DNA from: Verrucomicrobiaceae bacterium
GTDB taxonomy: Bacteria; Verrucomicrobiota; Verrucomicrobiia; Verrucomicrobiales; Verrucomicrobiaceae
Reading direction: 5' to 3'
Length of the DNA stretch: 64,000 nt
Assembly (NCBI GenBank): GCA_027486585.1
Contig: JAIXOU010000105.1
Coordinates: 1-64,000 of the forward strand
Shown here: piece after piece, positions 14,237-19,203 of the stretch
Position numbering within the stretch: position 1 is the stretch's first letter
How the letters are laid out: every line of letters starts with the position of its first letter
Made by a program: the position numbers and the translations under genes
The notes under the pieces: model-generated
Database searches by the model: none
The model's input: only the letters and a program-made list of their open reading frames with translations
What the model was told of the DNA's origin: nothing

Positions 14237-15528
14237 GCTTTCAGCACCTCCTCATAAACGTTCTCATAGCCACGAGCCGCGACGGAAATATCAAAATTTT
14301 CTTGAGCGTGGCGGCGCAGGTTATTAGCTGAAGGTTTTTCTAAAAGAGTCTCTTCCCATGCCAGCGCAAGAGCTTCTGGATCGCGGGCAGGGACGACCCG
14401 CCCGGCTCCTTTCAAAAGCCGTGCACAGTCACCGACATCAGTCGTGACGCATGCAACCCCGCAGGAGATTGCCTCCATGATCGTCATCGGGCAGGCCTCT
14501 GTGCGTGAGGAAAGAGAAAAAATGTCTAAAGCCGTGTAGGCACGCTCTGGGTCTGGGCGGAAGGGCGTGAAATGAATCTGTGAGCGCATAGGCATCACCG
14601 AAAGTGCGGCTCGGGCACAATCTCCTAGTTCATGTTCATCACCGCCGCACAACCAAAAGTGTGTTTCAGGCTTCTTTAATTGCAGGAGTGCGGCTGCACG
14701 CAACCAAGTGGACAGGTCCTTCATCTCGTGAAAACGACCGATAAAGCCTATGAGCGGAGCCTCAGTAGGCACGCGCAGTTCATTCCTGATCGCCTCACGT
14801 GCCTGGTCATCAGGTAAGAAGCGCTTTGTGTCGATGCCATTGGGCACCCAGACCATGGCTGCACGCGGATAGCCAAGCGGCACATGATCATCCATGGCAG
14901 CTGCCGAGCAGGAGATGATCTTCGTCGGTACGACATTGGATGAGGCACCAATCAGCTTGCGAAAGACGGCTGCACGCAAATCAGACTCTCCAGGGATGCG
15001 GTGAATTTCCCGACAATGAATGCCCCAAACCACATGATGCACACCCGCAAGTCTGGCACACCAGCCACCGACAAAATCAGCGTGGTGCATCCAGGATTGC
15101 ATCACAGCGGGGCGGATCTGACGGAGCAGTTTTACCAGCTTGACCAGCGTCGTTTTGCGCAGGAATCCGCTGCATTCTAGATCATGCACCTCGGCACCTG
15201 CCTCACGCAGTTTGGTCATCGACTCAGGCCAGGCGCGGCCATCGACGACGATGACCACTGTCTTCCAGGCCTCTTGATCCATAGCAGAAACCAGATTTAA
15301 CAGCATCGCTTCAGCGCCGCCGCCGCCAGGAGTCGATATAAAATGAACGACCGTTCGCGCCTGGCGCAGTGAGTCTGTCAGAGACTTGGATTGCTCCGTA
15401 ACTTTAGGCGTAGAAACCGTCTCCTGTTTGGAGAATAGCCGTAACTTTGGCATGAGTGCCCGACACTGATTGCCGAAGTCATAGCAGCCAGCGCTGAATC
15501 CCGCCCATGTTGGAGTGACCATTTTCAT
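14233..15528 (-). CDS. Glycosyltransferase family 4 (GT-B)
   Basis: 431 residues from the ATG at 15528, which overlaps the stop of the deacetylase gene (ATGA) and follows GGGGAGGTG; the longer frame from 15546 is not needed. The N-terminal acceptor domain has ISTPGGGGAEAMLL; the C-terminal domain has LIGFIGRFHEMKDL, then EACPMTIMEAISCGVACV, the EX7E donor-binding motif of GT4. Transfers a sugar from a nucleotide donor to the lipid-linked repeat unit on the cytoplasmic side. Confidence 0.92.
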   Translation of the reverse strand: MKMVTPTWAGFSAGCYDFGNQCRALMPKLRLFSKQETVSTPKVTEQSKSLTDSLRQARTVVHFISTPGGGGAEAMLLNLVSAMDQEAWKTVVIVVDGRAWPESMTKLREAGAEVHDLECSGFLRKTTLVKLVKLLRQIRPAVMQSWMHHADFVGGWCARLAGVHHVVWGIHCREIHRIPGESDLRAAVFRKLIGASSNVVPTKIISCSAAAMDDHVPLGYPRAAMVWVPNGIDTKRFLPDDQAREAIRNELRVPTEAPLIGFIGRFHEMKDLSTWLRAAALLQLKKPETHFWLCGGDEHELGDCARAALSVMPMRSQIHFTPFRPDPERAYTALDIFSLSSRTEACPMTIMEAISCGVACVTTDVGDCARLLKGAGRVVPARDPEALALAWEETLLEKPSANNLRRHAQENFDISVAARGYENVYEEVLKA

Positions 15529-16607
15529 GCAGCACCTCCCCGCCATTTTTTAAGGAGCTCAAAGGCACCTGAAGCCATGGCATTGGCCTCTAAAACTGTT
15601 TCAGGTGAACCATAACGCGGTAAGGCGTGGCTGGCAGATGCAGCGCTGTATCGTCCACCCATCATCGTAAAAGCCGCCTCAAATTTGTATTCGGCCAAGA
15701 TGCGCTGAGTGTCTGCGGTGAAGTCAGTCGGGCCACCATTCGTGTAAGCGAAAAGTCGTGGAGCTTGGCCAAGTTCGGCGATCATCCGATCTTGGCAGGT
15801 TTTGATCTCATCCATCTGCTCTTCAAGCGTGCAGCGTGCCAAGATTGGATGTGTGTGCGTGTGTCCACCAAGCTCGATCAATCCACTTTGTTGAAGTGTC
15901 CGCGCATTATCCCAGCTCATCGGCTGCATGACACGGGGCTGTTTTGGGGTGGCTTGGCTGGAGGACACCACACGTTTGACCTCTTTACGCATTTCAGTGT
16001 TGGGTAGTTTTTTCAGCTCAGCCAAGGCGCTGGACAACTCGGCGCCACTCCGACCCATGGCCTGATAGGCAAGATCCATCTCCTGAAACCAAAGCGCATG
16101 CGTGCCGTCCAAGAAGCCTGTGGAGAGAAAAATGGTGGCTGGTAATCCCAACTCACGCAGCACGGGAAAACCTAATTCGTAATTCGATGCATAGCCATCA
16201 TCGAAGGTGACCGCCACAGCTCGTGCTGGCAGCTTTTCTCCCTGCTGATTCATCCGCACCATCTCAGAAAGGGGCATGACCTGGTAGTTTTTGGCCAAAA
16301 ACTCGCAGATCCGGCGGAAGGTCCCAATAGGCTGATGAAGGCTGGCATCCAATGCCCCAGCCGCTGAATGATCCTCTCGCAGGCCATGAAAGGTGAGCAC
16401 GGCTCCTGTGGTATCCTTTTGATGCTGAGCCATCCATGTCAGGCCACAAAGAGTCAGAACCGCCGATTTGGCGGTCTGGCTGTAACGCTGGAGGCGGAGA
16501 GGCAGGGGTTTCAAATTATAATAATTGTGTAAAATTATCAAACTTAGACTAATAATCAAAGACTTCTCACTATTATTTTGCTTCAGTCCATGGCTCAAAT
16601 CTTCCAT
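15525..16607 (-). CDS. Polysaccharide deacetylase (NodB domain)
   Basis: Up to 360 residues. NodB domain about 65-330: AVTFDDGYASNYE (metal-binding Asp pair), GLPATIFLSTGFL, and GGHTHTHPIL with the His pair. De-N-acetylates a hexosamine polymer or precursor. The annotated start at 16607 is doubtful: the first about 45 residues come from AT-rich DNA holding a good promoter (16515-16541). A start after about 16505, for example the ATG at 16433 just before the AQHQKDTTGAVLTFHG segment, is more likely. First gene of the operon. Confidence 0.85.
   Translation of the reverse strand: MEDLSHGLKQNNSEKSLIISLSLIILHNYYNLKPLPLRLQRYSQTAKSAVLTLCGLTWMAQHQKDTTGAVLTFHGLREDHSAAGALDASLHQPIGTFRRICEFLAKNYQVMPLSEMVRMNQQGEKLPARAVAVTFDDGYASNYELGFPVLRELGLPATIFLSTGFLDGTHALWFQEMDLAYQAMGRSGAELSSALAELKKLPNTEMRKEVKRVVSSSQATPKQPRVMQPMSWDNARTLQQSGLIELGGHTHTHPILARCTLEEQMDEIKTCQDRMIAELGQAPRLFAYTNGGPTDFTADTQRILAEYKFEAAFTMMGGRYSAASASHALPRYGSPETVLEANAMASGAFELLKKWRGGAA
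16515..16541 (-). promoter_or_regulatory. Candidate promoter of the exopolysaccharide operon
   Basis: On the minus strand TTGATA (16541-16536) is followed after 15 bp by TATAAT (16520-16515) in a strongly AT-rich stretch. The spacing is short but both hexamers are near consensus. It would place transcription start around 16508. Confidence 0.45.
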
Positions 16608-16651
16608 CTTGATCCAAGACTTGGCCGTTACTATGCTCTAGGTTCCGTGAG

Positions 16652-16668
16652 TCGCCAGAGTCTGGCGA
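16652..16668. promoter_or_regulatory. 17-bp palindrome, possible operator
   Basis: TCGCCAGA, a central G, then TCTGGCGA: a perfect 8-bp dyad with a one-base centre, too tight for an RNA hairpin but ideal for a dimeric DNA-binding protein. It lies 8 bp before a TTGACA hexamer (16677-16682) upstream of the putative RNA gene and between two transcription units. Confidence 0.4.
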
Positions 16669-16716
16669 TCTGTTCTTTGACAATTTTTCGTGGTTTGGGA
16701 GATCTATTCTTCCTTC

Positions 16717-16941
16717 CACCGACTTTCCTGCAGTGTTCGTTGTCGAGCTGTTAGTGGCCCGGCCCGTTTTTATGACACCGGCGGTTTGCGACCTGGGATG
16801 TCTTGTCATGCCTTTACTGGAAGACAGCGCCCTTGTTCATGAGCCCCCACCTCGTCTCCCTGGGATACGAGGCCCTCAGATCGGACGGCACAGGTGGGTA
16901 CCCAAAGCGCCTCGGCTTTTGTCCGAGGCGCTTTCTTTTTT
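16717..16941 (+). ncRNA. Probable structured small RNA, 6S-like
   Basis: No credible protein gene occupies 16608-16959, yet a strong plus-strand terminator ends there with nothing else to terminate. Upstream is TTGACA (16677) with a weak TATTCT (16705) at non-ideal spacing. Within the stretch CCCACCT (16846-16852) can pair with AGGTGGG (16892-16898), enclosing the alternative hairpin CCTCGT/ACGAGG. Length near 190 nt before the terminator and a GGACGGCAC segment near the 3' end recall 6S RNA; the family assignment is tentative, and the 5' end is estimated. Confidence 0.5.
16904..16941 (+). terminator. Strong intrinsic terminator
   Basis: Perfect 12-bp stem (AAAGCGCCTCGG at 16904-16915, CCGAGGCGCTTT at 16923-16934) with a 7-base loop and a following CTTTTTT. 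The T-tract is on the plus strand only, so it ends a plus-strand transcript, not the isocitrate dehydrogenase gene that converges on it. Confidence 0.92.
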
Positions 16942-16959
16942 AAGGTTGCAGGATGAGTA

Positions 16960-19203
<2,244 letters not shown>

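Follow-up and report, generated by a model that had tools for sequence, protein, structure and literature searches.

The plus strand of the window, by which we mean the whole 64,000-nucleotide stretch of DNA analysed here, carries at 16722-16904 a full-length 6S RNA (SsrS) gene of the Prosthecobacter group of Verrucomicrobiota, whose membership in the 6S family is, as judged by comparison with related genomes, secure. We consider it probable that 16609-16941 (+) is a complete 6S transcription unit with a leader boxA that recruits Nus factors; most likely, Nus factors of the rRNA type would bind the nascent leader and aid the synthesis or the folding of 6S RNA. The 6S gene itself is a member of a known family that was overlooked by cut-off, and the boxA leader of 6S is new; our literature search found no report of boxA linked to 6S RNA. 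The features of the locus are collected in Table 1.

Table 1. Features of the 6S RNA locus and its neighbours, in window coordinates.
Feature	Position	Strand	Basis or remark
Polysaccharide-deacetylase-like ORF	15525-16607	-	named from reading of the translation
Predicted sigma70-type promoter, TTGATC-17-TATGCT	16609-16637	+	pattern and family comparison
Leader hairpin 1 (perfect 17-bp palindrome TCGCCAGAGTCTGGCGA)	16652-16668	+	just before boxA, the place of boxB in rrn leaders
boxA-like element TGTTCTTTGACA	16671-16682	+	includes TTGACA
Leader hairpin 2	16690-16719	+	between boxA and 6S
6S RNA (SsrS), full length	16722-16904	+	RF00013 and model R1
Closing stem, 5' strand	16727-16741	+	pairs with 16884-16898; covariation
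Predicted product-RNA template, 5' side of central bubble	16754-16768	+	start at U16768 predicted
3' side of central bubble, small hairpin (CCTCGT/ACGAGG form)	16849-16871	+	
Closing stem, 3' strand	16884-16898	+	pairs with 16727-16741; covariation
Intrinsic terminator of the 6S gene (12-bp stem, CTTTTTT)	16904-16941	+	
Monomeric isocitrate-dehydrogenase-like ORF	16960-19188	-	named from reading of the translation

Routine annotation misses this gene because its score falls under the Rfam cut-off. At the curated cut-offs, Rfam gave no match in the window, nor was a tRNA or tmRNA found there. When positions 16560-17000 were searched with an E-value threshold, 6S RNA (RF00013) was the best of seven matches and was aligned end to end (positions 1-187 of 187; E 6e-6), although its 36.5 bits lie below the curated cut-off of 46.4 bits. 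Such a covariance-model search had been suggested by the first-pass annotation, which guessed at a 6S-like RNA from the size of the element and from a 3' segment, GGACGGCAC, that is indeed present at 16883-16891. The other six matches (anti-hemB, ncS54, BSnc120, ncS01, suhB/mmgR and mir-1251) all take in the terminator hairpin and were rejected as lying far under their own cut-offs. Genome-wide, 16722-16904 is the sole RF00013 match (E 2.1e-5). A second model (R1), built from 18 family members with this genome and genome G003 left out, scored the locus at 165.7 bits (E 1.4e-44) in a search of the genome, the next best match having 12.9 bits. The guess is borne out by the end-to-end match, by model R1 and by the covariation described below.

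RF00013 under-scores 6S RNA in this order, where the gene is easily missed: at least 84 of 141 order genomes have a match and 29 of these pass the cut-off, the figures for the phylum being at least 143 of 288 genomes with 100 over the cut-off. Both counts, with one match listed per genome, are lower bounds, and the stricter filters missed the present genome itself. The named contigs with a 6S match include Prosthecobacter debontii MAGs, Brevifollis gellanilyticus and other Verrucomicrobiaceae. One P. debontii MAG (G010) also holds a second, decayed 6S-like copy (L101:1456-1603, contig C45), which consists of the 3' half and the terminator region and scores 26.3 bits with R1; an intact 6S lies elsewhere in that genome, and the gene directly before the decayed copy is one that we take to be a serine tRNA.

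The fold was examined in two alignments. Alignment A1 holds 61 sequences of the order, obtained from 77 by dropping 16 with at least 95% likeness; the 77 comprise this genome and 76 of the 84 order genomes matched by RF00013, the remaining 8 being members of family f2. Alignment A2 holds 20 sequences hand-picked from the 32 of the family to which this genome belongs (f1). On A2, RNAalifold returned the architecture of 6S RNA, i.e. a closing stem, a GGC/GCC helix, a large central bubble between helices and an apical stem. This family consensus has 41 pairs, with 95.6% of cells paired; helices 3-6 are 91.5-100% paired, and the 15 pairs with changes on both sides all lie in helices 3-5. None of 500 shuffles was as good, and slid versions of the structure paired at 39-48%. 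With A1, part of the apical stem was missing from the RNAalifold result, which we put down to the aligning of variable parts. The closing stem, left in doubt by the first-pass annotation, is nearly invariant within f1, varies across the order and yet stays paired: 98.2% of its cells are paired in the 61 sequences of A1, 5 of 11 pairs have changes on both sides, and the outermost pair is C-G in 41, A-U in 12, G-C in 4, G-U in 3 and U-A in 1, and is broken in none. These compensatory changes confirm the stem. Two local pairings had also been proposed from the single sequence, and all four segments are there. The helix of CCCACCT (16846-16852) with AGGTGGG (16892-16898) is not conserved, showing no compensatory change and a broken pair in 8 of 20 sequences; AGGTGGG is part of the closing stem, and CCCACCT contributes its first three bases, CCC, to the apical stem. 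The pairing of CCTCGT (16850-16855) with ACGAGG (16867-16872) survives as the local form of the small hairpin on the 3' side of the central bubble, a form compatible with no more than about half of the family members.

It is because of conservation among relatives, and not because of the fold or the number of terminators, that this stretch stands above chance. Folded singly, the sequence is no more stable than its shuffles (z +1.27; 183 of 200 shuffles as good), and terminator-like sites occur in this area at the chance number (5 found, 4.9 expected). By DNA similarity, 16722-16941 is kept at 72-91% identity in 22 of the 23 same-genus genomes examined, the twenty-third having one partial match, at a contig end; upstream of 16722, conservation at length was found in G003 only. 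The terminator stem at 16904-16934 (12 bp, 8 of them G-C pairs, followed by CTTTTTT) had been noticed at first pass as one without a protein gene to serve, and no plus-strand protein gene ends at it, both flanking ORFs being on the minus strand. It has by far the longest stem of these terminator-like sites, a stem and then a T-run stand directly 3' of 6S in most family members inspected, and it is the 6S gene's own terminator. Its assignment to the opposite-strand isocitrate dehydrogenase gene was rejected, as that strand has no T-run. A protein gene on either strand was likewise rejected: the lengths of 20 relatives fall into all three residues modulo 3, and among these relatives no reading frame is open throughout on either strand. 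Nor is there a conserved gene neighbourhood, with a full-length isocitrate dehydrogenase neighbouring 2 and a deacetylase neighbouring 3 of the 63 named 6S loci. We consider it exceedingly improbable that the element is some other structured RNA with a mere likeness to 6S, or that it acts in cis on the adjacent genes. The Rfam score below cut-off would fit a look-alike; yet the match runs from end to end, the 6S helices covary and the 6S RNAs of same-genus relatives score above the cut-off, while the genes that a cis element would serve are common only to the closest relatives.

Upstream of 6S, the sequences of the relatives have little in common beyond one short motif. In the window this motif is TGTTCTTTGACA, which lies downstream of the predicted promoter and agrees with boxA, the element bound by NusB-S10 in the leaders of rRNA operons. 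The hexamer TTGACA (16677-16682), which the first-pass annotation had listed, is the end of this boxA-like element; a promoter scan reports none there, and TTGACA was rejected as a -35, the promoter being further upstream, beyond the region then described. Within 100 nt upstream of 6S, the relaxed pattern GHTCTTT (H = C/T/A) is present in 32 of 32 genomes of f1, 5 of 6 of f4, the single genome of f6, 8 of 14 of f3 and 0 of 23 of f2 (G071 was dropped, its upstream sequence being too short), compared with 85 of 4391 control windows from those loci. Over the same distance it precedes 6S in 44 of the 62 named contigs (out of 63) that have enough upstream sequence; the stricter GHTCTTTGA, within 160 nt, is found in 33 of the 62 as against 20 of 5582 controls, and TCTTT[GA]A, within 160 nt, in 33 of 77 order genomes. 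At the 30 best-scoring 6S loci of the phylum, GHTCTTT occurs in 14, compared with 35 of 1710 control windows. Within f1 the pattern is found before RNase P RNA in 0 of 21 genomes and before tmRNA in 2 of 18 (3 of the 21 have no complete tmRNA locus), and its enrichment before 6S in this family is specific. As the relaxed pattern was chosen after the sequences had been viewed and the genomes are related, so that the counts are not independent, the evidence is given as a contrast with controls and no P value is attached. No boxA motif was found in the 170 nt upstream of ssrS at the one E. coli locus inspected. Elsewhere in the present genome there are 10 further exact boxA matches, mostly inside predicted coding frames. 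An exact TGCTCTTTGACA at G000:C63:4637-4648 (-) (locus L106) is apparently intergenic; no known RNA lies behind it, and it possibly leads another boxA-led RNA.

The motif is missing from f2 (Akkermansia-type), from some of f3 and from half of the phylum sample. Promoters abutting the start of 6S were counted in 20 of 23 f2 genomes versus 2 of 32 in f1, by a looser promoter pattern and without a control of its own. As judged from these loci, the boxA leader of 6S is a lineage trait that accompanies the presence of a leader, because the f2 promoters abut 6S and there is neither leader nor boxA. Across a large share of the boxA-less members of the order (loci L136, L140, L145, L146, L149, L153, L154, L156, L158, L176, L181, L189, L192 and others), the sequence just upstream of 6S is a conserved segment resembling AAACTTTTGGATTCCCT...GTAGAATTCAGGTAA, seemingly the 3' end of a single same-strand gene, and at these loci 6S may arise by co-transcription or processing.

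Of the 32 family genomes, 24 have a promoter pattern of the form TTGN3-17-TAN3T at a distance of 35-68 nt before boxA, compared with 2 of 1624 control windows, and in most family genomes the -35 starts 52-68 nt upstream of boxA. This rather fixed distance, together with a boxA-to-6S distance that varies widely (12 to 75 nt across the family), is what might be expected of an ordinary 6S gene in which TCTTTGA acts as DNA, for instance as a downstream promoter element or a transcription-factor site, instead of working as boxA in the RNA. We consider this unlikely, because the motif is that of the rrn-leader boxA of the same order (GTTCTTTGAGA, GCTCTTTGACA) and is absent where the promoter abuts 6S, and before RNase P RNA. 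It also fits, bar one G/A, the published boxA consensus GYTCTTTAANA, which is gamma-proteobacterial (PMC5725501), and this too argues for an RNA boxA. The 16S leaders were compared in relatives, as the assembly of the present genome contains no 16S gene. They carry a motif of the boxA kind 150-255 nt before 16S, in the form GATCTTTCAGAAAACA in most of f1, GTTCTTTGAGAGAAAT in f4, TGTTCTTTGAGAAAACA in f3 and AGCTCTTTGACAGTATG in one f2 genus; the family form GATCTTTCAGAAAACA differs at two positions from the 6S form, GYTCTTTGAMA. A boxA of the TCTTT type is absent from the 450 nt before 16S in two Akkermansia-like genomes of genus g2 (G076 and G035; L116 and L117), whose family is the one without boxA before 6S.

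Two hairpins flank the boxA in the leader, the first of them being the perfect palindrome already recognised at first pass. In rrn leaders the order is boxB, boxA, boxC (PMC10250234). At the position of hairpin 1 several relatives carry hairpins of unrelated sequence, and the mean folding z is -1.0 over 32 family leaders versus -0.2 for the control, a weak signal, and the conservation of hairpin 1 is not clear-cut. At the position of hairpin 2 the mean folding z is -2.6 over the 21 family leaders of sufficient length (control -0.2), and here again the sequences are unrelated.

We propose the following course of events. The sigma70-RNA polymerase would start near 16644 and transcribe a leader of about 75 nt, comprising a hairpin, boxA and a second hairpin, and then the 183-nt 6S RNA, stopping at the intrinsic terminator. 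As happens in rRNA operons, NusB-S10 and further Nus factors would be brought to the polymerase by boxA; a nusB gene is present in the genome. With the 5' part of the transcript tethered at the RNA exit, pairing of the far ends of 6S into the closing stem would be favoured, and tethering would be apt for 6S because the 15-20 nt at one end have to pair with the 15-20 nt at the other, as the rRNA leader does with the trailer. The leader may also shield the untranslated transcript from Rho, and would afterwards be trimmed off 6S. In rrn operons, boxA-modified polymerase resists Rho and still stops at intrinsic terminators, which would fit the strong terminator here. An RNA of 183 nt that ends at an intrinsic terminator has little need of protection from Rho, and the 12-75 nt spread of boxA-6S spacing might not be tolerated by a strict tether. 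According to the model for rRNA, NusB-bound boxA at the RNA exit holds the 5' leader near the polymerase, where it pairs with the emerging trailer, and in E. coli rRNA the mutation of boxA is described as costing just 2-3 fold (PMC10250234).

Under nutrient shortage, mature 6S RNA would hold sigma70-RNA polymerase by mimicking an open promoter, as 6S does elsewhere, until the synthesis of short product RNAs from U16768 releases the polymerase-bound 6S. This position is the predicted equivalent of E. coli U44, at which the product RNA of E. coli 6S starts (PMC8876501): the final U of CCGUU is at 16768, just as U44 closes the CCGAU of E. coli, and the CCG of the start site is present in 61 of 61 sequences of A1 and the final U in 56 of 61. 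The predicted product is AACGGGCCGGGCCAC, with U16768 as its putative start.

Since 6S and ribosome synthesis respond to the same growth signals, the boxA leader might be no helper at all, 6S expression answering instead to free NusB-S10 by feedback or repression in the manner of suhB. Repression of E. coli suhB by Nus factors through a boxA in its leader has been described (PMC5725501), and provides a precedent; that repression acts via translation, whereas 6S is not translated, and nothing in the present data favours repression. Such regulation by NusB-S10, to which we assign a low probability, is the main rival on the function of the leader, and the data do not separate it from the helper role that we prefer. 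Extending the helper role beyond this locus is a tentative step, and we regard it as possible, with some doubt, that in much of Verrucomicrobiota 6S is made by an rRNA-type, Nus-modified polymerase, with boxA tying the output and folding of 6S to the ribosomal supply of NusB-S10, and that this shared control was lost in the leaderless f2. If true, ribosome production and polymerase sequestration would be under one control via shared factors. The boxA leader is weightier than the filling of a gap in 6S annotation. So far boxA has been known mainly from rRNA operons, a few mRNAs and CRISPR arrays, and a large boxA survey, as described in PMC5725501, left non-coding RNAs out of consideration. A boxA-led 6S would be a short, tractable RNA for asking whether tethering helps distant ends to pair, a question raised for rRNA as well (PMC10250234).

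Set against known systems, the gene resembles E. coli ssrS in its length of 183 nt, in its closing stem, central bubble and apical stem, and in the CCG(A/U)U at the start of the product RNA; it differs in having a leader with boxA between two hairpins, and its neighbours are not zapA and fau. The order of promoter, hairpin, boxA and then a structured stable RNA is that of an rRNA operon leader, whereas here a short leader, with putative binding of Nus factors, is followed by a single regulator of 183 nt that has an intrinsic terminator. With the suhB and CRISPR leaders it shares a boxA outside rRNA operons, and in CRISPR arrays boxA likewise precedes a non-coding RNA (PMC7862264); unlike either of these, the RNA here is short and, being a 6S RNA, should itself bind RNA polymerase. 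The Ms1 RNA found in Actinobacteria is structurally 6S-like and binds RNA polymerase (PMC9130861). It is a binder of the core enzyme, whereas the RNA described here is a direct homologue of RF00013 and comes from another phylum.
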